Assembly: GCA_958296385.1 (NCBI GenBank)
Contig: OY282494.1
Coordinates: 2,934,981-2,998,980 of the forward strand
DNA from: an uncultured Dehalococcoidia bacterium
GTDB lineage: Bacteria; Chloroflexota; Dehalococcoidia; Lucifugimonadales; UBA3495
Direction: 5' to 3'
Length of the DNA: 64,000 bases
In this document: positions 13,716-44,360 of the stretch, one piece after another
How positions within the stretch are numbered: the first letter of the stretch is position 1
Layout of the letters: each line of letters opens with the position of its first letter
Translations under genes and position numbers: made by a program
Notes under the pieces: model-generated
The model's database searches: none
What the model was told of the DNA's origin: nothing
The model's input: only the letters and a program-made list of their open reading frames with translations

Positions 13716-16700
13716 TCAGCCGCGCCTACGCACCAGCAGGGCGATGCCGCCGCCGATTATGGCCAGGGCGATTACGGCGATAATGCCAATCAGCAGCCAC
13801 GGCGCGCCGCCGCCGGCCGGCTCAGCGGCCTGCGTTGCGGTTCCGGTTTCGGAAACGGCCGGCGTCAAGGTTGCCGTCCTGGACTGCTCATCCACCCGGA
13901 CGGTTACCTCGGATTGGCTGTCCGGGGCTACGATGGGCAGCCGCAAATCCTGCGTTTCGCCGGGCGCAACCGTAACCGTCTGGCGCTGGACTACCTCGCC
14001 GGCGATTTCCAGCACCAGCTGGTACTCGGCGATGACGGCTCCGGGGTTGGTTACCGGGAACTCTACCATCAGCGCACTGCCGGGCGCTGGGTTGGGGTTG
14101 CTGAATGTGATTTCGCCTATTACGGCCGGCTGCGGAACGATGGCCGCTACCGGGGGCGGTTGCGTTGGCGGCATCGCCGTCGGCGGGGCGGGCGGCGTCG
14201 GCGTAGGGGCCAGCGTTGGCATGGGTGTGGGCGCCGGTGTAGGCGTCGGCCGGACGGGGGCCGTCGTCGGTGTTGGCGTTGGCGCCGGGGTGGGCGTTGC
14301 GGGAACCGGCGTCGGCTTGGGGGCCGGGGTGGGCTTTGGCGCCGGCGTGCCGCCTCCAAAGCTGCCGCCGCCGCCGCCGGAACCGCCGCTGGGAGTACCG
14401 CCTCCGGTGCTGCCGTTGCCGTCGTCGTCCTCCTCATCAGGCGGCGGGGGTGTGCCGCCGGTGGTTACTACGGCGCGGCCGGCGATGAATGGCGAGAAGT
14501 CGGTTGCGGTGCCGCAGACTTGGCTGCCGATTTGCCGCGAGCCGGGCACCGTTCGCCAGCTATCTGACTGGTAGTGCATCAGCTGCGGGCCCCCGCTGCC
14601 GCCCCGGGGCAGGGGCAGGCAGACTTGCAGGCCGACCGCTGGCACCGGCGTTATGTCGATGTCCACCAGTGTATCGCCATCCAGGACATAGCCGGAGCGG
14701 GTGGCGTCGGCCGGGGCGCCGGTGGGCATGGTTAGCGTTATGGTAGTGCTTGAGGCCAGGCCCACGCCGCCTACTGACCGGATGGTTACGCCCTCGGGGA
14801 CGCCGGCCTCAGTGGTTATCGTGTGCGTCGTTGAGCCGTCAACGGCGTAGGTTGCGATGTTGCCGGGTGGGGGCGCCAGGAATTCGATGGGGGTTGTCGT
14901 GGCGCCGCCGCCGGGGGGAACCGGCTCCAGGAACAGCAGGGGCAGCGGTGTGGCACTGCTGGCAACGCCCCTGATGGTGGGCGTGTGCGTTATCCCGAAC
15001 GCATTGTGCACCGCGTCGCTGTCGGTGGTTGTGGTTACCGTTACGGGCTGGGCAGTGCCAAAGTCGGCAGTGGTAAATCTCAGGGAGTTCGGGCTGACCG
15101 TGACGCCGGGGTTGCTGCTGGCGATGGCGACGGTGGTAGTAGCCGCCGGCTCAGACGCCAGGGCTACGGTATAGGTGTAGATGGAGTTCTCATTCAGGGA
15201 CGCCAGGTTGGTCGGCAACAGGGTGATGACCGGCGCGGTGGTGTCCTGCACGGTTACGAATACGCCGGCGGTTGCGCCGGTGGTGTAGCCGCCGGTGGCG
15301 CTGGCGGTGTGCGTTAGCTGGTCGTTGCCGTCGATAAGGTTGGCGTCGGCTACCGCTTTGACGGTTACCGTCTGCTCCGTGTTCCAGGTGCTGGCGTTGA
15401 AGGTCAGGGTGGGCCGTGTTGTGGTGGCCAGGCCGGTGGTGTTGGCGATGGTTACGGTTACCGCCGCATTGGGCTGGTGGCTCAGCTTGACGGTGTAGGT
15501 TTGGCCGGTGGTTTCGCCCTCGATTACGGTGCGGGAGGTTTCGGACAGGATTAGGCTGCCGGTGTCGTTGTCGTCAACGGTTACGGACAGGGAGGCGGTT
15601 TTGCCGTGGTAGTTGCTGTCAGAGCTGGCCGCGAGGTGGGTAATCGTGAAGTCATTGTCCTCCAGGTCAACGTCCGCATCCGCTTTTACCGTTACCTGCT
15701 GCGCGATGTTCCAGCTGGCAGCGGGGATCGTCAGCGTTTCGCTCTTGGTGAAATCGGAATCGCCGTCGGTGCCGTCGATGGTCAGGCCGGCGGGCGCGGT
15801 TACGGTTACGGTTACCGTCTGCGTGGGCTGGGTGGCCAGCCGGACGCTGTACGTTTCGCCGCTGGCGTCCGCCTCGGGCACGGTCAGCATGGTTGGGCTG
15901 ACCAGCAGGTTGGGCGTGTCGTCGTCGGTTACGGTTACGGTCAGGGATGCGGTCTTGCCGGCGTAGCCGCTGGGCGTGGCCGTGGCATCGGCGGCGGTGT
16001 GCGTCAGGATGACGCGTTCGTTCTCGGGGTCGTTGTCCTCCGGCGCAAAGAGCCAGACCGTCTGCGCCGTAGTGGTCGCGGCGGCGAAAGTCAGCGTTGC
16101 GCTGCTGCCGTAAGTGACGTTGTCGGTGGATACGGTCACGGCGCCAGCGTCGTCGGTGCCGATGGTCAGGGTTACGTCGGCCTCCGGCGGGTTGCTGGGG
16201 GACACGGTATAGGTGACGTAGCTGCCCTCGTTCAGGTTCGGCGTGGTTTGGGGCACCACGATGCTGGCCGGGGTGGTGTCGGTTACGGTTACGTCCAAGT
16301 CAACATCGGCGGCGCTGCTGAACAGGCTGTCCACGCCCGACGTTGTATCGGTAGCGGCATGGGTCAGCGTGTTGCCGGTGTCGTGAGACAGGTCGTTGTC
16401 GGTTAGGCCCCTGACCCTTACCGTTTGCGGCGAGTTCCAGTTGCCGGTTGAGAAACGCAGCGTTTCGCTGTCGCTGAAACTGCCGTCGGTTGCGATGGTT
16501 ACGTCGTCGGTGGCGCTGCTGGTGATGGTTATGGTTACGCCGGCGGCGGGGCGGTGGCTCAGCATGACGGTGTAGGTGGTATTGCCGCCCTCGTCCACCG
16601 ACAGGGTGCCGGTTTCGGAGATGACGATGGTTGGCGTGTCGTTGTCGTCAATGGTTACGGGCAGGGACTTGTTGACGCCGGCGTAGGCGCTGGCGGCGGA

Positions 16701-19064
16701 GCCCGCGTTGGAGGCGGCGTGGGTAATCATGCCGCCGGTTTCGTCGGCCAGGTCGTTGTCCTCCGTGGCGCGTATCGTTACCGTTTGCAGCGTGTTCCAG
16801 CTAGTCATTGAGAAACTCAGCGTCCGGCTGCTGCCGTAGGCGCCGCTGCCGTTGTCGATTTCCAAGCCGGACGACGCGCTGATGCTGACGCTTACGTCCG
16901 CCGTGGGCAGGGTGTTCAGGCGCACGCGGTAGGTAGCGGTGTCCTCCTCGGTTACGGGCAGCGTGGTGATGGCGGCGTCGTTGGCGCCGTGCCACAGCAC
17001 GATGTCCGGAGCGTCGTTGTCCTCAACGGTTACGGACAGGGACGTGCTGACGTCGGCATAGCCGCCGCCGGTGGCCGAGTGGGCCAGCATGGCCGTTTCG
17101 TCCATTGAGTTGTCGTCGTTCCCCGGCGCCTCTATCGTTACCGTCTGCGCCGTTTGCCAGTTGGTAGTGGTGAACGCTATCGTTTCGCTGGCGGAGAACA
17201 CGGCGCCGGCGTCGGGGCCGTCAATCATCAGGCCGGTAGCGGCGACGGTAACCGTCACTGCGCCCGTCGGCACGTGGCTCAGCGCTACGCCGTAAGTGAC
17301 GTTGCTGCCCTGCTCATCCACCGTCAGCGCGGTTATGGCCACGCTGTTTTGCGTCAGCAGGAAGCTGGGCGTGGTGGTGTCGGTTACGGTTACGTTTAGG
17401 GAGTTGCTGACGCCGGCGTAGCCGCTGGCCGCGCCCCCGGCGTCGGCGGCGGCGTGGGTAATCGTAGTGTCGTCGTTGGACAGGTCGCTGTCGTCGGCTG
17501 CGCGCGCCCGTATCCGCTGCGCCGTCTGCCAGTTGCCGGGAGTGAAGGTCAGCGTTTCGGTGGGGCCAAAGTCGTTGCCGCTGGCGTTGTCAATGGTTAC
17601 GTCGTCGTCGTTGGTTGCGGTTACGGTGACGCGCACGTCAGCCGCCGGCTGGTGGCTCAGCTCTACGGTGTAGAATTCGGCGGCGGCGCCCTCGTCCAGG
17701 GTTAACGTGGTTAGCGTCGTGCCGCTTTGCTCCAGGACGATGCTGCCGGTGTCGTTGTCGGTAATCGTTACGGGCAGGTCTTTGCTGATGCCGGCATAGG
17801 CGCTGGGCGTTGACCCCGCATCGGCGGCGGCGTGGCTGATCCTGGCGGTGTCGTTGGCCAGGTCGTTGTCCTCCGTCGCTTTCACCCGGATGGTCTGCGC
17901 CGTGTTCCAGTTGGTGGTATTAAAGGTCAGCGTTTCGCTGGAACCGAAGTCGGCGCCGGTGCCGTCGTCAATTTCCAAACCGGAGTTCGCCGGAACGCTG
18001 ACGGTTACGGTTACGCCGGCATCGGGTTGGGTGGCCAGGAGCACGCGGTAGCCAGCGTCGCCCTCCTCGACTACGGTTAGCGTGGTGGTGGCCGTATCGC
18101 CCGCGGCGGGGTAAAAGACGATGTCCGGGTCGTCGTCGTCGTCAATGGTTACGGACAGGGACTTGCTGATGCTGCCGTAGCCGCCGCCGGTGGCCGCGTG
18201 GGCCAGCGTGGCAGTTCCGTCCATTGAGTCGGCGTCGTGCGCCGGCGCCTGGATGGTTACCGCCTGCACCGTTGACCAGTTTGAGGCGTCAAAGGTCAGC
18301 GTTTCGCTGGTGGAGAACGAAGTATCGCCGACGGCGCCGTCGGGGCCGTCAATGGACACCCCCGTTGCGGTTACGGTCACCGTCACCGTGCCCGTCGGCG
18401 CATGGCTCAGCGACACGTCATAGGTGACGTTGCTGCCCTCCTCCACTACCGTCAGAGCGGTTTGGGCCACGCCGTTTTGCGTCAGGTTGATGGTCGGCGT
18501 GTCGGTGTTCGTAACCCTTACGTCCCGCGCGACGGCGGGGGCGTCGCTGAACAGGCTGACGCTGCCGGACGTTGCATCGGCGGCGGTATGCGTCAGGGTG
18601 TTGCCCGTGCTGGCGGACAGGGCGTTGTCGGTTAGTCCCTTGACCGTTACCGTTTGCGTCGCATTCCAGCTGGAGCGGGCGGTGGTAAAGCGCAGCGTTT
18701 CGCTGTTGCTATACGTAGTACCGCCGTCGGTGGAGATTTCCACGTCGTCGTTTAGGCCGCTGGCGACGGTTACGGTTACGCCGGCGGCCGGCTCGTTGCT
18801 GAGCTTGACGGTGTAGGTGACGGTACTGCCCTCCGCAACCATCAAGGTGCTGGTGGCTACGATGATGGTTGGGTTGTCGTTGTCGGTTACGGTTACGGGC
18901 AGGTCGGCAGTCTTGCCGGAGTAGCCGCTGTCCGTGCTGGCGGCGCGGTGGGCTATCGTGATGGTGTCGTTGGCCAGGTTGTCGTCGGCCGACGCTATTA
19001 CCCTTATCGTCGTCGTGGACGTATCCCAGTTGCTGGCGTCAAAAGTCAGCGTTTCGGGCGCCAA
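13716..19064 (-). CDS. Giant surface protein B, C-terminal segment: Calx-beta-like repeats, stalk, membrane anchor
   Basis: 1,782 residues as a separate frame, but the end of the gene that starts at 44168. It begins in mid-domain ([17 protein letters not shown]). About eleven full ~115-residue repeats follow the broken one, with the pattern V.EG..YTV.LS..P...VTVTV.....SETLTF...NW...QTVTV.A..D..L.DD...THAA...Y.G.S.SL.VTV.DND (in parts), the Calx-beta-like bacterial Ig fold. Next come a conserved domain ([30 protein letters not shown]), an acidic Gly-rich hinge, a ~90-residue Pro/Thr/Ala stalk ([10 protein letters not shown]), a CARDB-like domain ([22 protein letters not shown]), and a C-terminal helix [18 protein letters not shown] followed by RRRG. 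There is no LPxTG sortase signal, so anchoring is by the helix. The frame break lies at 19057-19062. Confidence 0.75.
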
Positions 19065-22000
19065 AGTCGGTGCCGGTGTCGTCGTCGATGGTCAGGCCGG
19101 CGGGCGCCGTTGCGGTTACGGTTACGCTGGCGGTGGGCTGCGTGGCCAGCTGAACGGTGTAGCTGCCGCCGCTGTCGTCATCCTCGGCGATGGTCAGCGC
19201 GGACACGGACAGCAGGATGTTGGCCGTGTTGTTGTCGGTTACGGTTACGGCCAGGTCTTTGCTCGCGCCGTCAAAGCCGCTGGCCGTAGCCGTGGCATCG
19301 GTGGCGGCGTGGCTCAGGTTGAAACTTTCGCCGATGCCGTCGCTGTCGTCCGGCGCCCGCACGGTTACCGTTTGCGCCGTGTTGTAGTCCATCGGGGTGA
19401 AAGTCAGCGTCTGGCTGCTGCCGAAAGTGCCGCCGGCTTTGTTGATTTCTACGGCGTCGGTGTAGTCGATTGGCGTGCTGGGGACGGTTATGGTTACGGT
19501 TACGTTGGCCAGCGGCGCCGTGTTCAGCGTCACGTCGTAAGTGACGCTGCTGCCCTCCTCGGTTACGCCCAGCGCGGTTATGCCCACGCCGTTTTGGGCC
19601 AGGACGATGCTGCCCTTATCGTCGTCGCTAATCGCTACGGGCAGGGCGGCGCTGACGCCGGCAAAGCCGCTGCCGGCGCCGGTTGCGGTGTGCGTCAGGG
19701 TAGCCGTGTCGTCGATCAGGTTGGCGTCGTCGGCCGCCTTGACCGTTATCGTCTGCGCCGTGAACCAGTTGGTAGTCGAGAAGTTCAGCGTTTCGTCGCT
19801 GCCGAAAGTGCCGTCGCCGTCGTCAATGGTAACGGCGGTGTTGTCGCTGGCGATGGCTACGGTTACCGCCGCCGTGGGCCGGCCGCCCAGCCGCACGGTG
19901 TAAATGGCGCCGCTGGCGTCGGCCTCGTCCACTGCCACTGCGTCGGTGTTGAAAAGGATGGTGTTCCGCCCCTGCTTCAGGATGTCCAGGCCGCCGTATT
20001 GCAGTACCGGGTATTGGGAATCGTAGCCGAAGTCCCAGGGGTCGTCGTCGCCGGCTACGCCGTCAAGGTTCAAGTTCCAGTTGGCGTAGATGCTGGTGGT
20101 GGTGCTGACGCCGTAGGCGGTGGGCGTTTGCAGCTCACTCGTGGTTTTGCCGGCGCCGGCGCCGGTTCCCGTGATGCCGCTGCTGCTGGTGTCCCAATAG
20201 CTGGCGGTTATCGTGGCATCGGCGGGCGCGTTGCCGGCCAGACCGCCGATATTGGCGCCGGCGCCGGCGGTAACCATGCCCGTTGCGTAGGACGCCGTTA
20301 TGGTGGGCGAAGTGCCGCTTTCCAACTGGCCGGCCAGGCCGCCAGCGTAGGAGGCAGCGCCGTAACCGCCGGTTACCGTGCCGGTGGCGTAGCTGGCCGT
20401 TATCGAGCCGTAGGGCAGCTTCCCCACCAGCCCGCCGGCGTTAACCATCGTGGCCGTATTAGCGGTGGACGCGGTTACCGTCACGTCGGCGTAGCTGGCC
20501 CGGATGGGGGCGAAGTTAACGCCCACCAGCCCGCCGACGGATTTCTCGTTGCCGTCGCTATTGGTGGACGTTACGCTGCCCGTGGCCCAGCTGGCCGTTA
20601 CCGAACCCTCACTCTGGGCGTACAGCGTGCCAATGATGGCGCCGGCTTTGAGCCCGTTGCTGGCGCCGGTGATGCTGACGTTGGGCAGGCCCAGGCCGGA
20701 GACGCGGGCGGTGCCCCCGCTGAACAGCCCGACGTTGTGGATGCCCGCGGAGGCGTTGATATGCAGGTTGGATATGACATTGCCGTTGCCCTGGAAGGTG
20801 GCGTTGTAGCGGAAGGGACCCCAGCCGGCGCCCCCGTTGTAATACGCGTCGTCGGTGCGATCGCCGGGCGTGCCGGTGTCAAAGTCCAGGTTGGCCCGCA
20901 GTTCGTAGCCGATGCAGGTATCCGGGCAACCCATCCCGATGGACAGGCCGGGGAACGCCGCCGCGTACTTGGCGCTGGCATTGCCCTTGGCCACCACGCC
21001 ATCGCCGTCCCCGTCGTAGCGCATGGCGTCCAGCTGGGCCAGGGTAGTAATGTCAATCAGGTTGTTGTCGTTGGCGTCGTAGTCCTTGCCGGTACTGCCG
21101 CGCTGCCGATCGATGGCGATAACGTCCCGGTCGAATTGCAGGATGGGGTATTGATTGTTACCGCCGAATTGCCAGGGGTCGTCATTGCCGCCAACGCCGT
21201 CCACGTCCACGTTCCAGGCGGAGTAGATGCCGGTTCCGTAGGCGGTGGGCGTTTGCAGGGCCGAGGTAGTCTGGCCCGTGCCGGCCCCCGTTCCCGTGAT
21301 GCCGCTGGCGTCGGTGTCCCAATAGCTGGCGGTGATGGTGGCCCCGCTGGGCAGGTTGCCGGCCAGCCCGCCGGCGTTGCCGCCCGTGCCGGACGTTGCC
21401 CCTCCCGTAGCATAAGACGCCGTGATGGTGGGCCCGCCGCCGCCGCTCAGCCGGCCCACCAGGCCGCCAGCGTAGGAGTTGGCGCCGTAGCCGCCGGCGG
21501 TCGGGCCGGTGGCGTAGCTGGCCGTCACTGTGCCGTTGGCCAGTTGCCCCAACAGGCCGCCAGCGCGCACCTCAGTAGCCGTAGTGATGGTGGATGCCGT
21601 TACCGACACCCCGGCATAGCTGGCCCGGATGCTGCCGGCGGTTACGCCCACCAGCCCGCCGATGTGTTTGAGGCCGCTGCCGGCATTGCTCGCAGTTACG
21701 CTGCCGGTGGCCCAGCTGGAAGTTACCGTGCCGCTGCTGTCGCCGACCAGGACGCCGGCGCTCAGCCCGTCGGCGGCCCCGACTACGCTGGCATCGGGCA
21801 GGCCCACGCCGGTTATGGCGCCGGTAAGCGCGGCGAACAAGCCCACCCGGCCAACAGTAGAGCCGGCGCTGATGGCCAGGTTGGACAGGGTATGCCCGTT
21901 GCCCTGTAAAACGCCGGTGTACGTTCCCCCGATGGGCATCCAGCCTGCGCCGCCGTTGTAATAGTCGTCGTCGGTACGGGCGGCTTGGCCGGTGTTAAAG

Positions 22001-37000: not shown

Positions 37001-37335
37001 GGGTCGTCGGCGTTGCTGTCTCCGTCAACGTCCAAGTCCCAATTGAGGTAGATGGTGGACGTGGTGGCCGTGGGCGTCCGCAGTTCGTAGGTCTTTTTGC
37101 CCTCGCCGGGGCTGGTGGACGGGTCGGCGTCTGCGATGCCGCTGCCGGTGACGTCCCAAAAGCTGCTGGGCGTCGTAGCTCCGGCCGATACGCCTCCGGC
37201 CAGGCCGCCGGCGTTGGCGCTGGCGTCGGACGTAACGGCTCCCCTGGCGTAAGACGCCGTTATGCTGGGCGCGGCGCCGGTCAGCTGGCCCACCAGGCCG
37301 CCCACGTAGGAGCCGCTGCCCGTGCCGCCGGACAC
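19039..37335 (-). CDS. Giant surface protein B, central segment: thirteen GLUG-type modules and first Calx-beta-like repeats
   Basis: 6,098 residues, most of the ~10,150-residue locus. Thirteen modules each open with a D/N-rich loop plus NLIDVTTLAQL.A.RYDL.GDG, followed by a Cys pair (GMGCPDGC.GYEL or GLGCDTTCAGYEL). Then come L.FDT...YNGGAGWTPIG, FQGNGHT(I/L)SNL, and a run of GLUG motifs (VGLFG, GALVG, VGGLVG, AGGLAGQL, each followed by ASYATGAV-type strands). Modules end with YWDT..SGI and DDPWDFG...YP(V/I)LQY. GLUG arrays are predicted to form beta-helices. Alternate modules carry a cadherin-like beta-sandwich (LSGLTL.GA.L.P.F....L.Y...LP...). Two and a half Calx-beta-like repeats close the segment. 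It begins after a 1-nt deletion near 37367 and ends after a 2-nt deletion near 19057. Confidence 0.75.
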   Translation of the reverse strand: MSGGTGSGSYVGGLVGQLTGAAPSITASYARGAVTSDASANAGGLAGGVSAGATTPSSFWDVTGSGIADADPSTSPGEGKKTYELRTPTATTSTIYLNWDLDVDGDSNADDPWDFGASDQYPVLKYGGLDTAAQFARQPTLSSVNTLSGLTVPELAVSGVTLAPVFDAGTYAYAATSTDDFTLGVVTVNTPTTHAGATVSISAVIGAGAAVTDDANPDTDGYQVTLGAPSTVITITVAAQDGLPQDYTVTITVPEYDYDDDDDGLIDVTTLAQLDAIRWDLDGNGAADDAANNGRHAIGYPLPAAGMGCQSVDPDGAGPLPAVPTCAGYELRADLDFNTGQATRTDDAYYNDGAGWTPIGTDSTSYSSTFQGNGHSIANLVINAGSDVANVGLFRALSSGGVISGVGLPDVSVAGAADALSIGALAGDNVGTVTASWATGSVTASSAGSGVKRVGGLVGISGGRVRGSYAGVSVTASNAATAVSAGGLAGQLYNNAITASYATGAVAGGAGAGARTGGLVGWANGPSPSITASYSTGAVTSGTGANTGGVAGSAASGVLVNSYWDAETSGIAGGQTTGGLKTPTGYTGIYSAWNVNVDGVGGNDDPWDFGTNAQYPILQYDRDAVAIDRQRGSTGKDYDDDEGNLIDVTTLAQLDAMRYDLDGDGVSVTGAGAAKYATAFPGLSAGMGCPDTCAGYELRANLDFDTGTAGDRTDDEFYNGGAGWTPIGPDYLSTFQGNGHTIANLNVATPSQAAAGLFGTIISGGVSGLGLPNASVASAHSQARIGAIVGVMFDSGSITSSWATGSVTASSATADQKYAGGLVGLSGGQIRASYAGVSVTAADAATRILAGGLAGQLSNGGVTASYANGAVSGGTSATTYVGGLVGHLAGAAPTITASYATGAATSGASANVGGLAGNLPSGAVITYGYWDTGTSGIADNDPSTSAGEGKTTTELRTPTAYGVSTTTSIYAAWNVDVDGDAGTGDADGNDDPWDFGANDEYPVLQYGGLDRTAQLNIQPSLGALSGLTLSGARLSPAFATATLIYDGTLPVGSSPVVVTVDATPAGGATASISAVAGSAGPVTADADADTAGHQVILRGATTTITVIVTPLNGTPQDYVITIANIPENDYDDDDNNLIDVTTLAQLNAIRYDLNGDGVADSATNNAAYAAAFLYPAAGLGCDTTCAGYELRNGLEFNTGGAIRSDDAYYNDGAGWTPIGTGGAPYTGAFQGNGHTLSTLHVNAGADVATVGLFGTASGAITGIGLPDASVAGASDNIAIGALVGSLGQSGTVTSGWATGSVTSSSTGSSEKSVGGLVGYNGGAVRASYADVTVAADTTAATMVRAGGLIGRLYQAAITASYATGAVSGGTGAGSYAGGLAGQLAGVTASTITASYSTGTVTGGASAGIGGLAGSVASPSSVVNSYWDTTASEIADSDPSTSPGEGKKTYELRTPTASTSAIYLNWNVDVDGVTGGDDPWEYGTNRQYPVLKYGGLDTDAQFGRQPVISSVNTLSGLTASAITLAPAPFDAGTYTYAATLPDDSTLGVTTVAAPTTHADGTVSISAAIGAGAAVTVDADPDTAGYQVTLGGPSTVITVTVAAEDGLPQDYTVTITVPQYDYDANDNDRIDITSLAQLNAVRYDLNGDGVADDVANGGRYATGYPLPAAGLGCNTTCAGYELMADLDFNTGRATRTDDTYYNGGAGWTPIGGTYTSTFQGNGHTLSNLHVNADTTVVTVGLFGTITGAITGVGLPDASVAGASDNIAIGALAGALGQSGTVTSGWATGSVTSSSTGSSEKSVGGLVGYNGGALRASYADVMVTADTTAATTVRAGGLVGRLYQATITASYATGSVTGGSGATSYAGGLAGQLAGVTASTITASYSTGTVTGGASASVGGLAGGVASPSTVVNSYWDSDTSGISGGQTTSALQTPTGYTGIYSGWNVNVDGVGGNDDPWHFGANNQYPILQYDRGVIAVDRQRGSTGKDYDGNNNNLIDITTLAQLDAMRYDLDGDGAVAKGNASGEYAAAFPGLAVGMGCPDGCAGYELRANLDFDTGTAGDRTDDEFYNGGAGWTPIGTDGAPFSGTLVGNGHTLSNLHVNAGTDVVTVGLFGTLSGAVTGIGLPNASVTGARDSTAIGALVGTLQASGTVTSGWATGSVTSSNAGSAAKNVGGLVGFAYGTVRASYSGAAAVADAAATSVRAGGLVGVLNGGAVTASYATGAVSGGTGGSAFRGGLVGQLSGTAPSITASYAIGTVAAGAGANTGGLAGNNPAGAVITYSYWDTGTSGIASAGAGEGKTANELRTPTAYGTSTTTSIYAAWNVDVDGDPSNDDDPWDFGASDEYPVLQYGGLDRTAQVNLQPTVGTLTSLTLTGAMLTPGFDAATLAYTGTLPADASPVVVTVEAAAAGGATASYSAVAGSAGPVTADADADTAGHQVILRGATTTITVIVTPLNGTAQSYVITIAGIPENDYDDDDDNLIDVTTLAQLNAVRYDLNGDGVADNATDNAAYAAAYLYPAAGLGCAGTCAGYELLADLDFNTGRATRTDDDYYNGGAGWTPIGGTYASTFQGNGHTIANLVINAGSDAANVGLFRALSSGGVISGVGLPEASLSGAADALSIGTLAGDNVGTVTTSWASGSVTASSAGSGVKRVGGLVGISGGTVRGSYAGVSVTASNAATAVSAGGLAGQLYNNAITASYATGAVAGGAGAGSHTGGLVGWTNGPSPSITASYSTGAVTSGTGANTGGVAGSAASGVLVNSYWDAQTSGISGGQTTRGLQTPTGYTGIYAGWNVDVDGVGGNDDPWHFGANNQYPILQYDRGVVAIDRQRGSVGKDYDDDNNNLIDVRTLAQLDAMRYDGNGDGIVAKGSHSGHYAAAFPGLAVGMGCPDGCTGYELRNSLDFDTGTAGDRTDDAFYNGGAGWIPIRNYNSTLQGNGYTIANLHINADANVHRAGLFGPGTARISGLGLPNVSITGAYNWLRAGAIVGELYAQGSVTSSWATGSVTASSANGSGKSIGGLVGVSFAPIRASYADVTVTASTANTATTVNAGGLVGHLARAPVTASYATGAVSGGTSSASNVGGLVGRLEGALTITASYATGAVTAGTGANTGGLAGNNPTDAVITYSYWDTTTSGITGTGAGAGKTTGELRTPTAYGTSTTTDIYAAWNVDIDNADTDDDVTTGGDDPWEFGASDEYPVLKYGGLDTTAQVNLQPTVGTLTSLTLTGATLVPGFDAATLAYTGTLPPDASPVVVTVEAAAAGGATASYSAVAGSAGSVTADADANTDGHQVILRGATTTITVIVTPLNGAAQSYVITIAGIPENDYDTDDDNLIDVTTLAQLNAIRYDLDGNGVADNAAGAVAYAAAYLYPAAGLGCDTTCAGYELMADLDFSGSSAYANWTPIGGTYTSTFQGNGHTIAKLTVNAAAGVSRVGLFGALSSAGAISGIGLPDASVAGAADTISIGALVGDSGGTVTSSWATGSVASTSSSADAKYIGGLVGHVDGAVRAIYSGATVTASAAATAIHAGGLAGRVNSGTAIASYATGAVTGGTNATSYIGGLVGRAMAASTIAASYSTGTPGSTGASVNIGGAIGGSQSGATLSNNYWDADTSGISGGQRTSVLKMPTGYTGIYIGWNVDVDGVSGNDNPWQFGGNDEYPILQYDRDVIAVDRQRGSTGKDYDDDDDNLIDITTLAQLDAVRYDLDGDGAVAKGSASGEYAAAFPGLAVGMGCPDTCIGYELRANLDFDSGTAGDRTDDEFYNGGAGWTPIGTDTVPFSGTLVGNNHTLSNLYVNTGADVITIGLFGTLSGAVTGIGLPGASVSSARDSLAMGALVGTLRPSGTVTSVWATGSVTSGSADATTKYVGGLVGYGSGAVRASYAGVSVTAADAATRIRAGGLVGLLNGGAVTASYATGAVSGGTSNTSFVGGLVGQLTGAAPTITASYATGAPSSGASANVGGLAGNLPSGAVITYSYWDTGTSGIADNDPSTSAGEGKTTTELRTPTAYGLSTTTSIYAAWNVDVDNADTDDDVTTGGDDPWDFGANDEYPVLQYGGLDRTAQLNIQPSLGALSGLTLTGAALSPAFDTVTLTYDGTVPVGSSPVVVTVAATPAGGATASISAVAGSAAPVTTDADAGAAGHQVILGGPSTVITITVTPLNGTPQDYVITIANIPENDYDTDDDNLIDVTSLAQLNAIRYDLNGNGVADSATDNAAYAAAFLYAAAGMGCDTTCAGYELLNDLDFNTGQATRSDDAYYNGGAGWTPIGGTYASTFQGNGHSIANLAIDAGSDAANVGLFAVLGSGGVLSGVGLPDASVSGAADALSIGALAGDNVGTVRASWATGSVTSSSAGSGVKRVGGLVGISGGTVQGSYAGVSVTASNAATAVSAGGLAGQLYNNAITASYATGAVAGGAGAGSHTGGLVGWANGPTPSITASYSTGAVTSGASANVGGLVGTLVSGGTAPNSYWDTDASGITGTGAGTGQTTSALQTPTAYGNAGIYSAWNVNVDGVGGNDDPWNFGASNQYPVLQYDRDAVAIDRQRGSTGKDYDGNNNNLIDVTTLAQLDAMRYDGNGDGIVAKGSHSGHYAMAFPGLSAGMGCPDGCTGYELRNSLDFDSGTAGDRTDDAFYNGGAGWIPIRNYNSTLQGNGHTISNLHVNASPGVHHAGLFGPSSGQFSGIGLSGVSITGASNGLKAGALIGTLWAEGSVTSSWATGRVTSTNSDGNEKSVGGLVGINFAPIRASYADVAVTAATDATATKVNAGGLVGKLPHGSITASYATGAVTGGYGATSYAGGLAGQLESGTAPAITASYAIGTVAAGSGANVGGLAGNLPTGMMGATITYSYWDTDTSGIADTTPLTSAGEGKTTNELRTPTAYGTSTTTSIYAAWNVDIDNADTDDDFATGGDDPWDFGENDEYPVLKYGGLDTAMQVNLQPTVGTLTSLILTGATLSSAFDTATLAYTATLPDGSTAAAVTVAATSTNPTATVSYSAVAGTADAVIADADADRAGHQVILGGPNTVITITVTPQNGVAQSYTVTIAVPTNDYDDDDNNLIDVTTLAQLDAIRWDLDGDGVADNAAGAVAYAAAYLYPAAGMGCAGTCAGYELLADLDFNTGQAARTDDDYYNGGAGWMPIGGTYTGVLQGNGHTLSNLAISAGSTVGRVGLFAALTGAITGVGLPDASVVGAADGLSAGVLVGDSSGTVTSSWATGSVTASNAGSGLKHIGGLVGVTAGSIRASYAGVSVTASTITTATEVRAGGLLGQLANGTVTASYATGPTAGGYGANSYAGGLVGRLSGGGGPTITASYATGGATSGTGGNAGGLAGNLPSGATITASYWDTDASGITGTGAGTGQTTSALQTPTAYGTGIYSAWNVDVDGVGGNDDPWQFGGNNQYPILQFDRDVIAIDRQRGSTGKDYDANDNNLIDITTLAQLDAMRYDGDGDGVVAKGNASAKYAAAFPGLSIGMGCPDTCIGYELRANLDFDTGTPGDRTDDAYYNGGAGWGPFRYNATFQGNGNVISNLHINASAGIHNVGLFSGGTARVSGLGLPNVSITGASNGLKAGAIIGTLYAQSEGSVTASWATGSVTSTNSDGNEKSVGGLVGVNFAPIRASYADVTVTASTANTATMVNAGGLVGKLPYGSITASYATGTVTGGYGAASYAGGLAGQLESGTSPTITASYATGMVTAGAGANIGGLAGNAPADATITASYWDTSSSGITGTGAGAGKTTSELQTPTAYGVSTTTSIYANWNLNLDGVAGDDDPWDFGYDSQYPVLQYGGLDILKQGRNTILFNTDAVAVDEADASGAIYTVRLGGRPTAAVTVAIASDNTAVTIDDGDGTFGSDETLNFSTTNWFTAQTITVKAADDANLIDDTATLTHTATGAGSGFAGVSAALPVAISDDDKGSIVLAQNGVGITALGVTEEGSSVTYDVTLNTAPLANVTVTITVPSTPIDYTDAVEINKAGGTFGSSQTLTFTPMDYNTAQTVTVRAPDDSDGIGESFNLSHAATDATATASGFDGASKDLAVTVTDNNTANILLSVSALTIAEDDDSGGSYTVQLATQPTASVTVTATAPAGLTIDDDTGTDFGARNADF
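21046..36570 (-). repeat. Higher-order tandem repeat, ~2.53-2.61 kb dimeric unit
   Basis: Module openings recur near 21056, 22171, 23666, 24781, 26269, 27332, 28800, 29892, 31351, 32448, 33921, 35397 and 36538. Spacing mostly alternates ~1.1 and ~1.47 kb. One module type begins KDYD and ends with the beta-sandwich; the other begins NDYD and ends in the linker IDRQRGSTG. The pair repeats every ~2.53-2.61 kb between 21 and 31.4 kb, with one extra module at 33921. Many 40-60 nt blocks look nearly identical between copies. Confidence 0.8.
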
Positions 37336-37358
37336 TGCGCCGGTGGCGTAGCTGGCGA

Positions 37359-40300
37359 TTACCGCGTGTTCGCCAGCGACCCAATCAGGCCGCCGGCCCG
37401 CAGCGCCGTGGCCGTAGTGGTTGCCGTTACCGTTACGTCGGCATAGCTGGCCCGCACCGCGCCGGCGTTGTAACCCACCAGGCCGCCGACGAATTTTGCG
37501 GCGCTGCCGGGATTGCTGGCCGTTACGCGGCCCGTTGCCCAGCCCGACGTTACCGTTCCGGCCCCCTGCAACGTGCCCACCAGCGCGCCCATTGCCAGAT
37601 TATCCCGCGCCCCGGCTACTTTGGCGTTGCGCAGGCCCACGCCGGTGATGGCGCCGCTGGCCGTGCCAAACAGCCCCACGGTAACGACGTCCGCACCGGC
37701 GTTGACGTTCAGGTTAGCTATGTCATTGCCGTTGCCCTGGAACTTACCGCTGAACGGCGCGGCGTCGGTTCCGATGGGCGTCCAGTTGGCATAAGGCCCG
37801 TCGGCAACGCCGTCGCTGCCGGTAGTGTCAAAGTCCAGGTCGAGCAGCAACTCGTAGCCGGCGCATCCGTCGGGGCAGCCCATGTCGGCGGCGCGGATGG
37901 GGTAGGCGGCGGCATACGCGATGCGGTTGGCGGCATCGTCCAACGCCCCGTCGCCGTTCAAGTCGTAGCGGATGGCGTCCAGCTGGGCCAGGCTGGTCAC
38001 GTCGATGAGGTTGTTGTCGTCGGTATCGTAGTCGGTCTCCGGGACGGCGACGGTTACGACGTATCGCTGGGCCGCGCCGCTATAAGGGACGACGGTTACG
38101 GCGATGACGGTGCTGGGCCCGCGGAGGACGACCTGATGGCCGGGGGTGTCGGGGTAGGCATCGGCGATAACTGCGCTGCCGGCGCCGGCCACGGCGCTGA
38201 TGGACACTTCGGCATCGGCACGGGCCGCCGTGGCCACGACGGTTGCCGTGGGCGATGTTGCGTCGGCGGGCAGCGTTGCATCGTAGGCAAAGGTACTCCG
38301 GGCCAGCGGGGCCGACAGCATGGCCGGGGATAGGGTGAGCGCCGTCAGCCGGCCGTACTGCAAGACGGGATATTGGGTGTTGCCGCCAAAGTACCAGGGG
38401 TCGTCGGGGTTGCCGTCTCCGTCAATGTCCCGGTTCCAGTTGGCGTAGCTGCCGCTGCCGTAGGCGGTAGGCCCTTGTAGCTCGCCGGTGGTTTTGCCCT
38501 CCCCGGCGCTGGTGGACGGGTCAGCGTCGGCGATGCCGCTGGTGTCGGTGTCCCAATAGCTGTTGGCTATGGTGGCATCGGATGGCAGATTGCCGGCCAG
38601 CCCGCCCACGTTGACGCTGCTCGCGGTGGAAGTAGCCGTTCCCGTTGCGTAAGACGCCGTTATGCTGGGCGTGGTGCCGCTTTCCAACTGGCCGGCCAGT
38701 CCGCCGGCGTAGGAGGCCGCGCCGCCGCCGCCGGTTACCGTGCCGGTGGCGTAGCTGGCCGTTATCGAGCCGTAGGGCAGCTTACCCACCAGCCCGCCGG
38801 CGTTAACCGTCGTGGCGGTTGCGTCCGTGGACGCGGTTACCGTCACGTCGGCGTAACTGGCCCGGATGGGGGCGAAGTTAATGCCCACCAGCCCGCCGAC
38901 GGATTTCTCGTTGCCGTCGCTATTGGTGGACGTTACGCTGCCCGTAGCCCAGCTGGACGTTACCAGACCACCCTGGGCGTACAGCGTGCCAATCAGGGCG
39001 CCGGCTTTGAGCCCGTTGCTGGCGCCGGTGATGCTGACGTTGGGCAGCCCCACGCCGGAGACGCGGGGGGTGCCCTGGCCGAACAGCCCGACGTGGTGGA
39101 CGCTGGGGCTGGCGTTGATATACAGGTTGGACAGGGTATGGCCGTTGCCCTGGAGCACGCCACTGTAGCGGAGGGGTATCCAGCCGGCGCTGCCGTTGGA
39201 GAACTCATCGTCGGTGCGGTCGCCGGCCGTGCCGCCGTCAAAGTCCAGGCTGACGACTAGCTCGTAGCCGGCGCACCCGTCGGGGCAGCCCATTTTGCTG
39301 GACACGCCGGGGAAAACGGCCAGGTAGCTAAGAGCGTCGGCCCCCGTGTTGGATATTCCGTCGCCGTCGCTGTCGTAGCGCAGGGCGTTCAGCTTGGCCA
39401 GCGAGTCAATGTCAATCAGGTTGTCGTTGTCAAAGTCGTAATCCACGGCGGTTGCGCCGGGGCTGCGCTGCTGCTGGACGCCCCGCGCATCGCGGTCGTA
39501 TTGCAGGATGGGATACTGCGCGTTGGTGCCAAAGTTCCAGGGGTTGTCGGCCCCGCCGGTGTCCAGGTTCACGTTCCAGCCGGTGTAGATGCCGGTGTAG
39601 CCGGTGGGGGATTTCAGGCCGCTGGTGGCTACGCCCTCCGGCGCGGCGTTGCCGCCGTCGTCGGGTACGCCGGTGGTGGTAATATCCCAATAGCTGTTGG
39701 TGATGGTTGCACTGCTGGAAATAGCGCCAAACAGCCCGCGCGTCGCGGACGTGGATCCCGTAACCGCGCCAGTGGCGTAGCAGGCGTTCACCGCAACTTG
39801 CCCGACTGATCCGGCCAGCCCGCCGACGTTTGCGCCGGCCCGGTTGGCCGCTACCGCCCCGGTCGCATAAGAGGCGGCCAGTGTGCCCGGATTGTCGTTG
39901 TTGCCGCCCACAACGCCGGCCAGGCCGCCAACGGAATCTGCAAGAGTGCTGGTGGAGGTAGAGTTCGCGGTTACGTTAACCGCCGCGTAGCTGGCGGAAA
40001 CGCTGCTGCCAAAGCGGGTAGTGCCCACCAGTCCACCCACCCAGCTGACCGCCGTGCCGCTGGCAGTGGTCGTAATCGTGCCGGTGGCATAGCTGTCCCG
40101 CACCGTGCCGTCGAGAAAGCCGACCAGCCCGCCGACCTGATGCAGAGAGGGTTGGATGCTGGTGTAACTGGTCGTGATGGCCACGCCGGTCAGCCCCACG
40201 CCCTCAATAGCGCCGGCGACCGAGCCGAACAGTCCCACCCGGCCCGTGTTGGTAGCGTTGATGGTCATATTGGCGATGGTGTAGTTGTTGCCCTCAAAGT

Positions 40301-43019
40301 TGCCGGTGTACGGCGCAATGGGCGTCCAGTTGGGGTAGGCGTCGGCGCCGGTTACGGCGCCATCGCCGCTGGTGTCAAAGTCCAGGTCCGCCACCAGTTC
40401 GTAGCCGGTGCAGGTGGCGGCACAGCCCATCCTGGCCGGCGGGCGGGGGTAGCCGACGGCGTGCAAGGCGCTGTTGGCGGCGTCGTCCACCACGCCATCG
40501 CCGTTCAAGTCGTAGCGGATGGCGTTGAGCTGGGCCAGGTTGCTGACGTCAATGAGATTGTCGTTGTCGATGTCGTAGTCCGTCGCGGCGGTGGGGATGG
40601 TGACCACGTAGCTCCGGGCCGGGCCGCTATTGGGGGTGACGGTAATGGTGATGACCGTGCTGGGGCTGCCGAGGGCGACCTGATAGCCGGCGGCGCCCGC
40701 GTCCCCATCGTGGGTAACGGCGGGGCCGCCGCCGATGGTAGCGCTGATGGACACCGTGTCGCTGTCCCGGTCTGCCCTGGTAGCCACGGTGACCGTGGGG
40801 GCGGTTGAGCCGGCGGGCAGCGTTGCGGTGTAGGCCAGGGTATCCGGGTGAAAGGCCGGCAGCGCGGCCGGCAGCACGGTGAGCGTGTTCAGCGTGCCGG
40901 TGGTGGGCTGGCGGTCAAACTGCGAGAATGTATCCAGCCCGCCGAACTGCAAGGCCGGATATTGGGCGTTGGTGCCAAAGTGCCAGGGGTCGTCGTTGCC
41001 GCTACTGTCCCCGGTGCCGGTATCGCCGTCAACGTTCACGTCCCAGCCAAAGTAGGTGTCGGTAGCGTAGCGGGTGGCGTAGTCGGTGGGCATCTGCAAC
41101 TCGCCGGTAGTTTTGCCCTCGCCGGCGCTGGCGTCCAGGTCAGCGTCGGCGATGCCGCTGCTGTCGGTATCCCAATAGCTGTTGGCTATCGTGGCCCCGC
41201 CGGGCAGATTGCCGGCCAGCCCGCCGGCGTTGACGCCGCTTGCGGTGGAAGCAGCCGTACCCGTTGCGTAAGACGCCGCGATGCTGTGCGCCGCGCCGCT
41301 CAGCTGGCCCACCAGGCCGCCGGCGTAAGAGGTGGCGCCGCCGCCGCCGGCTACCGCGCCGGTAGCGTAGCCGGCCGTCACCGCACCGCCGTTCAGCCGC
41401 CCCACCAGGCCGCCGGCCGAAACCGTCGTAGCCGTAGTAGCCTGGGATGCGGTTACCCTCACGTCGGCGTAGCTGGCCCGCACGGGCGCAGCCGCCCGGC
41501 CCACCAGGCCGCCCACGGATTTGGCGCCGCTGCCGGTACTGGTGGAAGTTACGCGGCCGGTGGCCCAGCTGGCCGTTACCAACCCCCCGGCGGACAGTTC
41601 GCCAATCAGGGCGCCGGCCCGGAGCGTGTCGCTGGCGCCGGTAACACTGGCGTTGGCCAGCCCAACGCCGGAGATGGTCGGGCCGCCGGTGCCGAACAGC
41701 CCAACGTGCTGGATGCTCGCGGCGGCGTTGCTGGTCAGGTTTGAAATCGTATGGTTGTTGCCCTGGAACACGCCCCCGTAGTTGCGGATGGGCGTCCAAT
41801 TGGCATAGGGCCCGTCGGCCACGTCGTCATCGCCTTGCGTGTCAAAGTCCAGGTCGTTCCGCAGTTCGTAGCCGGTGCAGGCGCCAGGACAGCCCATGCG
41901 TCCGGCGGCGGCGGTTTGGCGGGACGGATAGGCGGCGGCGTATTCGGCGTGGCCCGCGTCGCCGTCGCCGTTCCCGTCGTGGCGCATGGCGTTCAGCTGG
42001 GCCAGGTTGCTAATGTCAATCAGATTGTCGTCGTCGGTGTCGTAGTCAATGAAAGGCCGGTATTTCAGGGCCGGATATTCGGAGCCGGTTCCGAAGTCCC
42101 AGGGGTCGTCGCCGCCGGCCGCCCCGTTCAGGTTCAGGTTCCAGCCGGCGTAAATGCCGGTGTAGTCGATGGGGGATTTCAGGTCGGCAGTAGCCTGGCC
42201 CGTGCCGGCGCCGCCGGTGTGCGCGCAGAGGGTCGAGTCGTAGTAGCTGTTATGGACGTTGCCGCCATCGGACAGGCAGCGCGTGCCGGCGCCGCCGCTA
42301 ACGGCGCTGGCGGCGTAGCTGGCGGTGATAGTGCCGGCATCGTTGCGGCCCGCCAGCCCGCCGGCGCCGCCGCTGCCCGCGCCGCTGTTGACGGCGGTAG
42401 TGGCATAGGATGCCCGCAGCGCGCCGTTGTTCCGGCCCACCAGCCCGCCGGTAACCGCGCCGCTGCCGCTGCCGGCAACGGAGCCGCCGGTGGCATAGGC
42501 GGCTGAAATCGTGCCCCGGTTCCGGCCCGCCAGCGCGCCGGATTCCTGCGCGCCGCCCGTACCGCGCACGGTGGGATTAATCAGCCCCACTGCGGTGATG
42601 CGCCCGCCGCTGCCCAGTTCTGCGAACAGCCCCAGCCGCGCGCTGGCGGCGGCCGAGCTGACGTTCAGGTTAGAGATGGTATGGGCGTTGCCCCGGAACG
42701 TGGACGTGTAAGTTCCGATGGGCGTCCAGTTGGCATAGGGCGCATCGGCCCGGTCGTCATTGCCGGTAGTATCAAAATCCAGGCTGGCCCCCAGCTCGTA
42801 GCCGGCGCAAGCGTTGGGGCAGCCCATCTGCCGGGTCAGTCCGGGGAAAGCCGCCAGATAACTGACGGCCCCCGCCCCGCGCACTGGTATCCCGTCACCG
42901 TTCCCGTCATAGCGAATGGCGTCCAGCTGGGCCAGGTTGTTAACGTCAATCAGATCGTTGTTGTTGGCGTCATAGTCCACGGCAGCCGCGCTGGGGCTGC
43001 GCAGCCGCTGGATGGCCAC
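37359..43019 (-). CDS. Giant surface protein B, N-proximal segment: five GLUG-type modules
   Basis: 1,886 residues, in the same frame as the segment ending at 43050 and separated from it only by one TAA codon. Five modules (openings DYDANNNDLID, DYDTDDDNLID, DYDIDNDNLID, DYDFDNDNLID, DYDTDDNNLID) are more diverged from each other than those downstream, which suggests an older array. Two cadherin-like sandwiches occur (LPAFHPDTLAYTATLP and LARSTFAYDATLP). The frame ends at ...LIGSLANTR where comparison with sister modules shows one missing base near 37367. The first codon here is not a true start; it is an internal ATG after the nonsense codon. Confidence 0.75.
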   Translation of the reverse strand: MAIQRLRSPSAAAVDYDANNNDLIDVNNLAQLDAIRYDGNGDGIPVRGAGAVSYLAAFPGLTRQMGCPNACAGYELGASLDFDTTGNDDRADAPYANWTPIGTYTSTFRGNAHTISNLNVSSAAASARLGLFAELGSGGRITAVGLINPTVRGTGGAQESGALAGRNRGTISAAYATGGSVAGSGSGAVTGGLVGRNNGALRASYATTAVNSGAGSGGAGGLAGRNDAGTITASYAASAVSGGAGTRCLSDGGNVHNSYYDSTLCAHTGGAGTGQATADLKSPIDYTGIYAGWNLNLNGAAGGDDPWDFGTGSEYPALKYRPFIDYDTDDDNLIDISNLAQLNAMRHDGNGDGDAGHAEYAAAYPSRQTAAAGRMGCPGACTGYELRNDLDFDTQGDDDVADGPYANWTPIRNYGGVFQGNNHTISNLTSNAAASIQHVGLFGTGGPTISGVGLANASVTGASDTLRAGALIGELSAGGLVTASWATGRVTSTSTGSGAKSVGGLVGRAAAPVRASYADVRVTASQATTATTVSAGGLVGRLNGGAVTAGYATGAVAGGGGATSYAGGLVGQLSGAAHSIAASYATGTAASTASGVNAGGLAGNLPGGATIANSYWDTDSSGIADADLDASAGEGKTTGELQMPTDYATRYATDTYFGWDVNVDGDTGTGDSSGNDDPWHFGTNAQYPALQFGGLDTFSQFDRQPTTGTLNTLTVLPAALPAFHPDTLAYTATLPAGSTAPTVTVATRADRDSDTVSISATIGGGPAVTHDGDAGAAGYQVALGSPSTVITITVTPNSGPARSYVVTIPTAATDYDIDNDNLIDVSNLAQLNAIRYDLNGDGVVDDAANSALHAVGYPRPPARMGCAATCTGYELVADLDFDTSGDGAVTGADAYPNWTPIAPYTGNFEGNNYTIANMTINATNTGRVGLFGSVAGAIEGVGLTGVAITTSYTSIQPSLHQVGGLVGFLDGTVRDSYATGTITTTASGTAVSWVGGLVGTTRFGSSVSASYAAVNVTANSTSTSTLADSVGGLAGVVGGNNDNPGTLAASYATGAVAANRAGANVGGLAGSVGQVAVNACYATGAVTGSTSATRGLFGAISSSATITNSYWDITTTGVPDDGGNAAPEGVATSGLKSPTGYTGIYTGWNVNLDTGGADNPWNFGTNAQYPILQYDRDARGVQQQRSPGATAVDYDFDNDNLIDIDSLAKLNALRYDSDGDGISNTGADALSYLAVFPGVSSKMGCPDGCAGYELVVSLDFDGGTAGDRTDDEFSNGSAGWIPLRYSGVLQGNGHTLSNLYINASPSVHHVGLFGQGTPRVSGVGLPNVSITGASNGLKAGALIGTLYAQGGLVTSSWATGSVTSTNSDGNEKSVGGLVGINFAPIRASYADVTVTASTDATATTVNAGGLVGKLPYGSITASYATGTVTGGGGAASYAGGLAGQLESGTTPSITASYATGTATSTASSVNVGGLAGNLPSDATIANSYWDTDTSGIADADPSTSAGEGKTTGELQGPTAYGSGSYANWNRDIDGDGNPDDPWYFGGNTQYPVLQYGRLTALTLSPAMLSAPLARSTFAYDATLPADATSPTATVVATAARADAEVSISAVAGAGSAVIADAYPDTPGHQVVLRGPSTVIAVTVVPYSGAAQRYVVTVAVPETDYDTDDNNLIDVTSLAQLDAIRYDLNGDGALDDAANRIAYAAAYPIRAADMGCPDGCAGYELLLDLDFDTTGSDGVADGPYANWTPIGTDAAPFSGKFQGNGNDIANLNVNAGADVVTVGLFGTASGAITGVGLRNAKVAGARDNLAMGALVGTLQGAGTVTSGWATGRVTASNPGSAAKFVGGLVGYNAGAVRASYADVTVTATTTATALRAGGLIGSLANTR

Positions 43020-43049
43020 GGCATCGCGGCCGTATTGCAGGATGGGATA

Positions 43050-44168
43050 TTAAGCGGCGGTGCCAAAGTGCCAGGGGTTGTCGCCGCCGGTCGTAACGTT
43101 GTCGTCGGTATCGGCGTTGTCCACGTCCACGTTCCAGTTGGCGTAGATGCCGGTGTAATCGGTGGGCATCTGCAACTGCGCGGTGGTTCTCCCGGTTGCC
43201 CCGAGGCCGGGGTCTCTTGAGTTGAGCAGGTCTGACGTCGTACCGGAGGTTTCGGTATTCCAGTAGCTATTGGTGATGCGTTTGTTGGAATCCCATTGCC
43301 CTAGTACCAGACCGGCCCGTCGCAGGCCGGTTATCGCGCCGGTAGCGTAGCTGGAGTCGACGATAGAACTGGTATTGATTACCCCCACCAGGCCGGACGC
43401 GCCATGAAAATTGTTGTCGGATGAGCCGCCGCGGGTCGTGACCGCGGCCGTCGAATAGCTGGCGATAATGCTCGCGGTGGTTCCCCCCACCAGTCCGGCT
43501 GCGGACGAGCTCCCGCTGACCCGCCCGCTGGACCAGCTGGCGTAAACCGTAGCAGCGCTATTGCCAATCAGAATTGCGGCGCGCGCCCCGCCGGTAACGT
43601 TAGCGTCGGGCAAGCCCAGGCTGGTGACGGAGCCGGACGAGCCCATATTGGCGAACAGGGCGACGTCATTATTGCCCGGCCGGTTGATGGTCAGGTGGGA
43701 GATGGTATGGCCCTTGCCGTCGAACGCGACGTTGTACCCGCCGATGGGTTCCCAGTTGGTGTAGGCGTGGCCATCGGCGCTGGTAACGCTGCCGTCGCCG
43801 TTAGTATCAAAGTCCAGGTCGTTCAGCAGCTCGTAGCCGGAGCAGGTTCCGGGGCAGCCCATCAGCCCGGGGACGATGCCGTCGCGGTTGGGAAAAGCGG
43901 CGTTGTAAGCGACGGCTGGCAGTCCCAAAACAGGGGCGCCATCGCCATCCAAGTCATGGCGAATCGCGTCCAGCTGGGCCAGCGTCCTGATGTCAATCAG
44001 ATTATCGTTATCAATGTCATAATCGATGACACTGACACTCTGTGCCGCCACGTCGCCGGGGCCGCCAAACAGAGCCAGCCCGGCCAGCAGCAGCAAAACC
44101 GCCCCAACCCCAACCCCGGCCAGCGCAAAGCAAAAGCCGCTGCTGATACGGCGGCGGGCCGGCATCAT
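43050..44168 (-). CDS. Giant surface protein B, N-terminus with signal anchor and first module
   Basis: 372 residues. ATG 44168 (or the adjacent ATG 44165) is followed by MPARRRIS and a ~25-residue hydrophobic helix ending ...AAQS, a signal peptide or anchor for Sec export. The first D/N-rich opening (DYDIDNDNLIDIRTLAQL) and first GLUG module follow. The frame ends at ...PWHFGTAA-TAA; sister modules read G(T/A)..(E/Q)YP(I/L)LQY here, so TAA replaces what is GAA in the module near 49530. Translation resumes in the same frame with YPILQYGRDAVAIQR. A single substitution therefore truncates the ~10,150-residue protein at residue 372 unless it is a sequencing error or the codon is read through. 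Confidence 0.78.
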   Translation of the reverse strand: MMPARRRISSGFCFALAGVGVGAVLLLLAGLALFGGPGDVAAQSVSVIDYDIDNDNLIDIRTLAQLDAIRHDLDGDGAPVLGLPAVAYNAAFPNRDGIVPGLMGCPGTCSGYELLNDLDFDTNGDGSVTSADGHAYTNWEPIGGYNVAFDGKGHTISHLTINRPGNNDVALFANMGSSGSVTSLGLPDANVTGGARAAILIGNSAATVYASWSSGRVSGSSSAAGLVGGTTASIIASYSTAAVTTRGGSSDNNFHGASGLVGVINTSSIVDSSYATGAITGLRRAGLVLGQWDSNKRITNSYWNTETSGTTSDLLNSRDPGLGATGRTTAQLQMPTDYTGIYANWNVDVDNADTDDNVTTGGDNPWHFGTAA

Positions 44169-44186: not shown

Positions 44187-44203
44187 CCCCCCCCCCCCCC
44201 CCC
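44187..44203. repeat. 17-base homopolymer in the leader of giant gene B
   Basis: Seventeen C on the plus strand, G on the mRNA strand, 18 nt upstream of ATG 44168. Giant gene A has GGGGGAGGG at the matching place, where it serves as Shine-Dalgarno. A run of this length is prone to slippage. Confidence 0.9.
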
Positions 44204-44246: not shown

Positions 44247-44309
44247 CTACCATAGGAACACCATCCGGCCCAAAGCAGGCAAAGCGCAGCAGCAATTATC
44301 GCACAACAT
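44247..44309 (-). CDS. Putative 20-codon Cys-rich leader reading frame upstream of giant gene B
   Basis: ATG 44309 lies 11 nt after the -10 box, so it would be translated nearly leaderless. It encodes MLCDNCCCALPALGRMVFLW and stops with TAG. The matching leader of gene A also encodes a Cys-rich peptide ending FLW-TAG, with indels of 6 nt only. Another frame of the same DNA is also partly conserved (hydrophobic, ending SYGS) but has no start codon. Translation is unproven. Confidence 0.35.
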   Translation of the reverse strand: MLCDNCCCALPALGRMVFLW

Positions 44310-44329: not shown

Positions 44330-44360
44330 CAAAAGCAGCGGGCGCAAGCCAGGCCGGAGG

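Follow-up and report, generated by a model that had tools for sequence, protein, structure and literature searches.

A broken giant GLUG-module surface protein and a candidate poly-G/C phasome in a possibly sponge-associated Dehalococcoidia bacterium

Introduction

Homopolymer phase variation is mainly known in animal pathogens and commensals. Among the poly-G/C phase-variable groups of Campylobacter, many are modifiers of surface structures, and restriction-modification systems account for several (PMC6321876). As a rule, such tracts are under-represented in the genes of prokaryotes (PMC2831843). As to giant surface proteins, Giant1-5 of Apilactobacillus kunkeei (PMC12863079) are consecutive surface-protein genes that encode 3,000-8,000 aa each and take up about 6% of the symbiont genome. 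The literature collection searched contained nothing on phase variation in Chloroflexota or sponge symbionts, and nothing on GLUG proteins in Chloroflexota or sponges.

Here we analyse a window of 64,000 nucleotides (65.8% GC), spanning positions 2,934,981-2,998,980 of the closed genome (3,298,084 bases) of an uncultured Dehalococcoidia bacterium. The window holds a 30.5-kb locus that is a broken member of a family of giant surface proteins, and this family is very probably phase-variable. As in the phasomes of Campylobacter (PMC6321876) and Neisseria (PMC5084427), long G/C tracts are found in coding or leader DNA, and the target classes are shared: surface structures, their modifiers, and modification or methylation genes. 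In contrast to those phasomes, the organism is a high-GC uncultured Dehalococcoidia, the tracts reach 27 nt, the targets include giant GLUG proteins, and switching is predicted from the sequence. Compared with Giant1-5, the giants share beta-solenoid domains, intragenic recombination, and a large share of the genome. However, the loci are scattered here, the modules are of the GLUG type rather than SRRP-like solenoids, and the leader carries a homopolymer, which the abstract of PMC12863079 does not describe for A. kunkeei.

Results

Architecture of the window giant

The four minus-strand open reading frames that the initial annotation joined into one gene (43050-44168, 37359-43019, 19039-37335, and 13716-19064) are correctly placed. 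The domain plan proposed there also holds, with a signal peptide, 19 GLUG module starts, 14 Calx-beta-like repeats, a Pro/Thr stalk, and a C-terminal helix (Table 1). When the four segments are joined across the breaks, the reading is 10,149 residues long. The modules of the window giant span 305-377 residues, with identities of 42-76% to one reference module among them. The C-terminal membrane helix ends in an RRRG tail. No LPXTG-like motif lies upstream of this helix in the window giant, which argues against a sortase anchor. The signal peptide and the C-terminal helix without LPXTG point to surface display.

The giant would form a long rod, in which modules of mostly 340-380 residues, each with an N-terminal LID/NGDG stretch followed by a GLUG beta-helix, alternate with cadherin-like sandwiches and lead into Calx-beta-like sandwiches, the Pro/Thr stalk, and the membrane helix. 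Such a rod probably serves adhesion or surface masking, and an adhesin or symbiosis role is plausible for the window giant.

Table 1. Features in the window, by window position.
Feature	Position	Strand	Description
PMT/GT39-like membrane glycosyltransferase	9132..11452	-	out of frame at 13-nt G/C tract (10867-10879)
Cobalamin-type substrate-binding protein (Peripla_BP_2)	12736-13653	-	in-frame TGA at 13366-13368; CxxU motif
Segment D	13716..19064	-	most of the 14 Calx-beta-like repeats; Pro/Thr stalk; Ig-like domain; C-terminal membrane helix with RRRG tail
Segment C break	frameshift near 19050	-	within Calx-like repeat
Segment C	19039..37364	-	~13 GLUG modules, cadherin-like sandwiches, first Calx-like repeats
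Segment B	37359..43049	-	GLUG modules and cadherin-like sandwiches; frameshift near 37365 in GLUG module
Segment A	43050..44168	-	signal peptide and first GLUG module; in-frame TAA (43050-43052) within module
17-nt poly-G tract	44187..44203	- (C on + strand)	leader out of frame with giant
Candidate upstream leader start codon, MVAGWGRAVLRS...	44251..44253	-	ATG
Extended -10 promoter-like element, TGTGGTACAAT	44321..44331	-	between Uma2 and giant
Uma2 (PF05685) gene	44361..45383	-	directly upstream of window giant
Adjacent paralogous giant	45424..56420	-	3,665 aa read through; 6 GLUG modules; one frameshift near 51,570
Two more Uma2 genes	56598..58334	-	upstream of second giant

GLUG beta-helices and Calx-like sandwiches

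In the window giant, GLUG (PF07581) scores 48-76 bits against a Pfam gathering cut-off of 20.5, and Cadherin-like (PF12733) also exceeds its cut-off. Pfam therefore bears out these two domain names. The Calx-beta name finds no such match, as PF03160 is not detected by Pfam in segment D or in 14 single repeats.

The predicted GLUG module is a beta-helix, with a mean pLDDT of 79 and values above 90 across most of the helix. The best solved match in Foldseek is the Bacteroides ovatus structure 3n6z (E 2e-8, probability 1.00), followed by M26 IgA1 proteases (6xja, 7uvk). The module profile retrieves M26 IgA1 proteases by sequence also, so the likeness extends to both fold and sequence. In contrast to these proteins, the giant has many tandem modules and no detectable protease domain; Pfam scans of all four segments find no peptidase family, which argues against an M26-type protease.

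The predicted Calx-like repeat is an Ig-like sandwich (pLDDT 94). Its modelled fold resembles NCX/Calx domains (Z 9.5-10.0), in a tie with PapD-like and MSP sandwiches. The sandwich repeats further resemble LapA-type adhesins, with LapA (PF20579) profile matches that are weak and under the Pfam cut-off. Unlike LapA-type and Calx-beta proteins, the giant carries repeats that fall under the Pfam cut-off and is anchored by a C-terminal membrane helix. PDB sequence searches with the Calx-beta-like and C-terminal domains gave nothing useful.

A giant family scattered over the genome

The genome, whose searches yield all genome-wide counts given here, contains 114 module matches across 12 loci. The family totals 56,311 residues and occupies 5.1% of the genome, and the window giant, when read through, is its longest member. 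Seven paralogues are open and complete (8,579, 6,715, 5,597, 4,279, 3,437, 1,854, and 1,592 codons, stop to stop), and all seven have the signal and an RRR-tailed anchor. Such giants are therefore real, with an intact paralogue as large as 8,579 codons. Architecture, module fold, and the seven intact paralogues of the same plan together give good support to the earlier proposal of a membrane-anchored giant surface protein.

The remaining loci vary. The giant at 45424-56420, adjacent to the window giant, is absent from the initial annotation, as are the Uma2 genes upstream of both giants. A 1,469-codon member is broken, and its signal lies in another frame. An intact giant of 7,915 codons (genome 2,203,960-2,227,707) has the same modules and a different C-terminus; no Calx-like repeats, no long leader G tract, and no Uma2 neighbour were found for it. 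The giant at 2.50 Mb (genome 2,500,519-2,505,757) has decayed heavily: its reading frame changes several times, and its 14-G leader is unfused. Giants share patches of 93-98% identity, which suggest recombination among them, and module recombination appears to supply sequence and length variation.

Internal breaks in the window giant

As assembled, the locus is not the single functional gene that had been proposed, because segments A and B are separated by an in-frame TAA and two frameshifts lie within modules, one in a GLUG module (B/C) and one in a Calx-like module (C/D). At the position of the TAA, other modules have a sense codon, and two adjacent changes separate the TAA from the nearest sense form. 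No long homopolymer is present at the internal breaks of the window giant or of the adjacent paralogue. The place claimed for the giant among the largest bacterial proteins accordingly stands for its read-through length, but not for the assembled sequence, with three breaks and a leader out of frame.

Several accounts of the breaks can be weighed. Each of the four open reading frames has a possible start codon, as would be expected of four separate genes with their own starts. However, all boundaries are inside conserved modules and the signal peptide is missing in B, C, and D, so we give this account next to no credence and reject it. Repeat collapse or an assembly chimera, the latter already raised by the initial annotation, is also rejected as unlikely; the repeats share about 75% DNA identity, and a difference of about 25% makes collapse unlikely, and the reading frame runs uninterrupted through seven paralogues with the same plan. 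Programmed frameshifting is unsupported, as the two shifts are opposite in direction, the remaining break is a nonsense codon, and the paralogues have none.

The breaks might instead be consensus errors, in which case the gene would be intact at about 10,150 codons and possibly expressed. Every break in the window is a tiny change within an otherwise conserved module, and in the second giant the break comes down to a single-base gap where the surrounding stretch is 95-96% identical to that of an intact paralogue. The C-terminal part of the window giant also seems to be under normal selection, with a dN/dS of 0.43 against the nearest paralogue, the same as for intact pairs. However, the intact paralogues, which are just as repetitive, run to about 120 kb without a break, and the breaks are confined to four loci, which favours real mutations. 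In addition, the breaks are away from homopolymers and the TAA needs a double change. Frame changes in 400 kb of sampled genome, taken from a codon-model scan that gives a coarse upper bound only, are mostly ordinary gene overlaps, with false pairs in stalks. Consensus error is thus unlikely, though it keeps some weight. If the breaks are real, the normal dN/dS indicates that they are recent.

With its 17-G leader out of frame and three further breaks, the window copy is most likely silent and decaying. For the family as a whole, we consider it quite likely that the giants are a lineage-expanded, signal-bearing, membrane-anchored, phase-variable group of surface proteins in which the window copy has fallen silent and decays.

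A poly-G tract in the leaders of the giants

A tract of 17 G, overlooked by the initial annotation, is positioned 18 nt upstream of the ATG used there. Eleven giant leaders share one plan: a Shine-Dalgarno sequence and ATG, a leader of 62-99 nt, a G tract, and the signal peptide. In 10 of the 11, the extended -10 promoter-like element TGTG(G/C)TANNAT lies between -127 and -177. A GGAGG-type Shine-Dalgarno sequence precedes the leader ATG in 10 of 11 paralogues and is degenerate (GGATGG) at the window giant.

The tract measures 17, 20, 12, 13, 15, and 14 G in six leaders and 7-8 in three, and is short or interrupted in two. Counted over all 12 giants, half (6/12) thus have leader tracts of 12-20 nt, the window giant with its 17 G among them, and 3 more have 7-8 nt. 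The tract length sets the frame between the start codon and the protein, so that the leader is fused to the giant, stopped at the internal ATG, or overrunning. With the leader ATG taken as the start, the reading frame continues into the giant in five cases (fused) but not in six (unfused); four of the unfused leaders end at or just before the internal ATG, and two, including that of the window giant, overrun it out of frame. The four that stop there could support coupled re-initiation. The leaders of the 1,592- and 1,469-codon members are 93% identical, carry 13 and 15 G, respectively, and are in different frames. Internal breaks occur in 4/6 unfused and 0/5 fused giants (Fisher one-sided p 0.045), a link between unfused leaders and broken genes that is suggestive only.

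Tract length varies both between paralogues and between species. G or C tracts of 8-21 nt occupy the same place in the leaders of four relatives from three genera (G006, G007, G015, and G025). All six runs of at least 8 in the examined loci of G006 adjoin giant starts (6/6), and two G006 members without a long tract look unfused too. No tract of at least 11 occurs in G010, a closed genome of the same genus.

Alternatively, the tracts might be G-rich elements that serve the internal ATG in ribosome binding or in the mRNA, or they might have arisen by neutral drift, given the GC-rich genome. In most members, G-rich sequence lies a few nt ahead of the internal ATG and is a potential Shine-Dalgarno sequence, so "unfused" need not equal "off"; moreover, the long tract is missing in some members. 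However, a run of 12-21 G exceeds what a Shine-Dalgarno sequence needs, and some relatives have poly-C, which cannot serve as one, at the same place. Because either G or C is used in relatives, a Shine-Dalgarno role alone is insufficient to account for the tracts. In 798 kb of own sequence, runs of 9-11 are also less frequent than runs of 12-21, and other tracts are sited inside, or at the beginning of, genes of classic phase-variable types. We therefore judge this alternative improbable.

Slipped-strand switching of the giants is the preferred reading. The homopolymer in their 5' leader is far above background, and changes in its length by strand slippage would switch or tune giant expression, that is, phase variation, perhaps with three levels: fused leader, coupled re-initiation, and out of frame.

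A candidate phasome of poly-G/C tracts

Run lengths of G/C are bimodal in 798 kb of own sequence, with 8 runs of length 8, few of 9-11, and many of 12-21, and no A/T run of at least 8 was found in the same 798 kb. The genome has 21 tracts of at least 11 G and 23 of at least 10. Of the 21 longer tracts, 6 fall within the 11 x 100 nt of giant leader (P about 7e-17).

The tracts are concentrated in surface, glycosylation, and methylation genes. Six or seven membrane glycosyltransferase-like genes carry a tract internally or at their start; these genes have a common RTGQY-type C-terminus, and some of them are PMT by Pfam. Further tract genes are GT1, GT2, a sulfotransferase, an LRR surface protein, a lipoprotein-like gene, an N6/N4 DNA methylase, and a glycerate kinase, the last being one clear exception to the pattern. 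The PMT-like glycosyltransferase of the window probably belongs to the same phasome as the giants; its paralogues are open elsewhere in the genome. The LRR surface protein (genome 2,682,295) has an anchor similar to that of the giants, with a C-terminal membrane helix and an RRR tail, and a 22-nt C tract ahead of the signal peptide. The DNA methylase (N6_N4_Mtase, genome 3,008,465) has a 26-nt tract at its N-terminus and is a candidate phase-variable methylation regulator.

Tract-bearing glycosyltransferases, other surface proteins, and the DNA methylase would switch alongside the giants, and the PMT-like enzymes that bear tracts may glycosylate the Pro/Thr stalk.

Uma2 genes upstream of the giants

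Uma2 (PF05685) genes number 91 in this genome, several of them in tandem runs. Of the 25 copies of one Uma2 subfamily, 19 sit immediately upstream of giants and together cover 10 of the 12; the Uma2 gene next to the window giant belongs to this subfamily. This association, together with the conversion-like patches shared by giants, could suggest that the upstream nuclease-family genes drive module recombination and length change, forming a diversity-generating unit. However, this neighbour is found at none of the 12 giant loci examined in G006 and at 1 of 3 in G007, and six solo copies of the giant-linked subfamily adjoin housekeeping genes. A general Uma2-giant partnership is rejected, as it is not conserved in G006, and a driving role is very improbable. 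Co-duplication is the simplest account of the association.

An adjacent selenoprotein gene

The Peripla_BP_2 gene next to segment D contains an in-frame TGA (Table 1). The TGA and its CxxU motif are conserved in every same-genus relative and also outside the genus. A hairpin (CUCRGC-AGGUY-GCYGAG) that shows a compensatory change follows the TGA, and tRNA-Sec is present in the genome. The conserved TGA and the tRNA-Sec indicate that the gene encodes a selenoprotein, so the TGA, which made the gene look broken, is not a sign of decay in this region. BtuF with CxxU has already been listed (PMC13188914).

Related modules and possible sponge association

Among named genomes searched with the module profile, the closest relatives are "uncultured Dehalococcoidia" chromosomes (OY282456.1, 62% module identity). 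Modules are also present in same-genus, same-family, and same-order genomes. Related modules occur in bins of Latescibacterota, Acidobacteriota, Actinomycetota, Verrucomicrobiota, and others, and many bin names fit sponge metagenomes. Many named module matches carry the bin prefixes APA, COS, IRC, and RHO, which fit the sponge species list in PMC8163846. By this mapping of prefixes to species, the lineage may be sponge-associated. In the module tree, Latescibacterota modules are nested within a supported Dehalococcoidia group, a placement that is compatible with inter-phylum exchange.

Discussion

On balance, we favour the reading that this possibly sponge-associated Dehalococcoidia has a poly-G/C phasome that would randomly switch GLUG giants, glycosyltransferases, and a DNA methylase, perhaps among three levels. 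If this is true, phase variation in Chloroflexota would target giants that rank among the largest surface proteins of the genome, and presumed symbionts would diversify their surfaces as animal pathogens and commensals do. It would also matter for the ways in which dense communities escape phagocytosis by a host, phages, or grazers. Calls of giant "pseudogenes" in such genomes need to allow for switchable reading frames.
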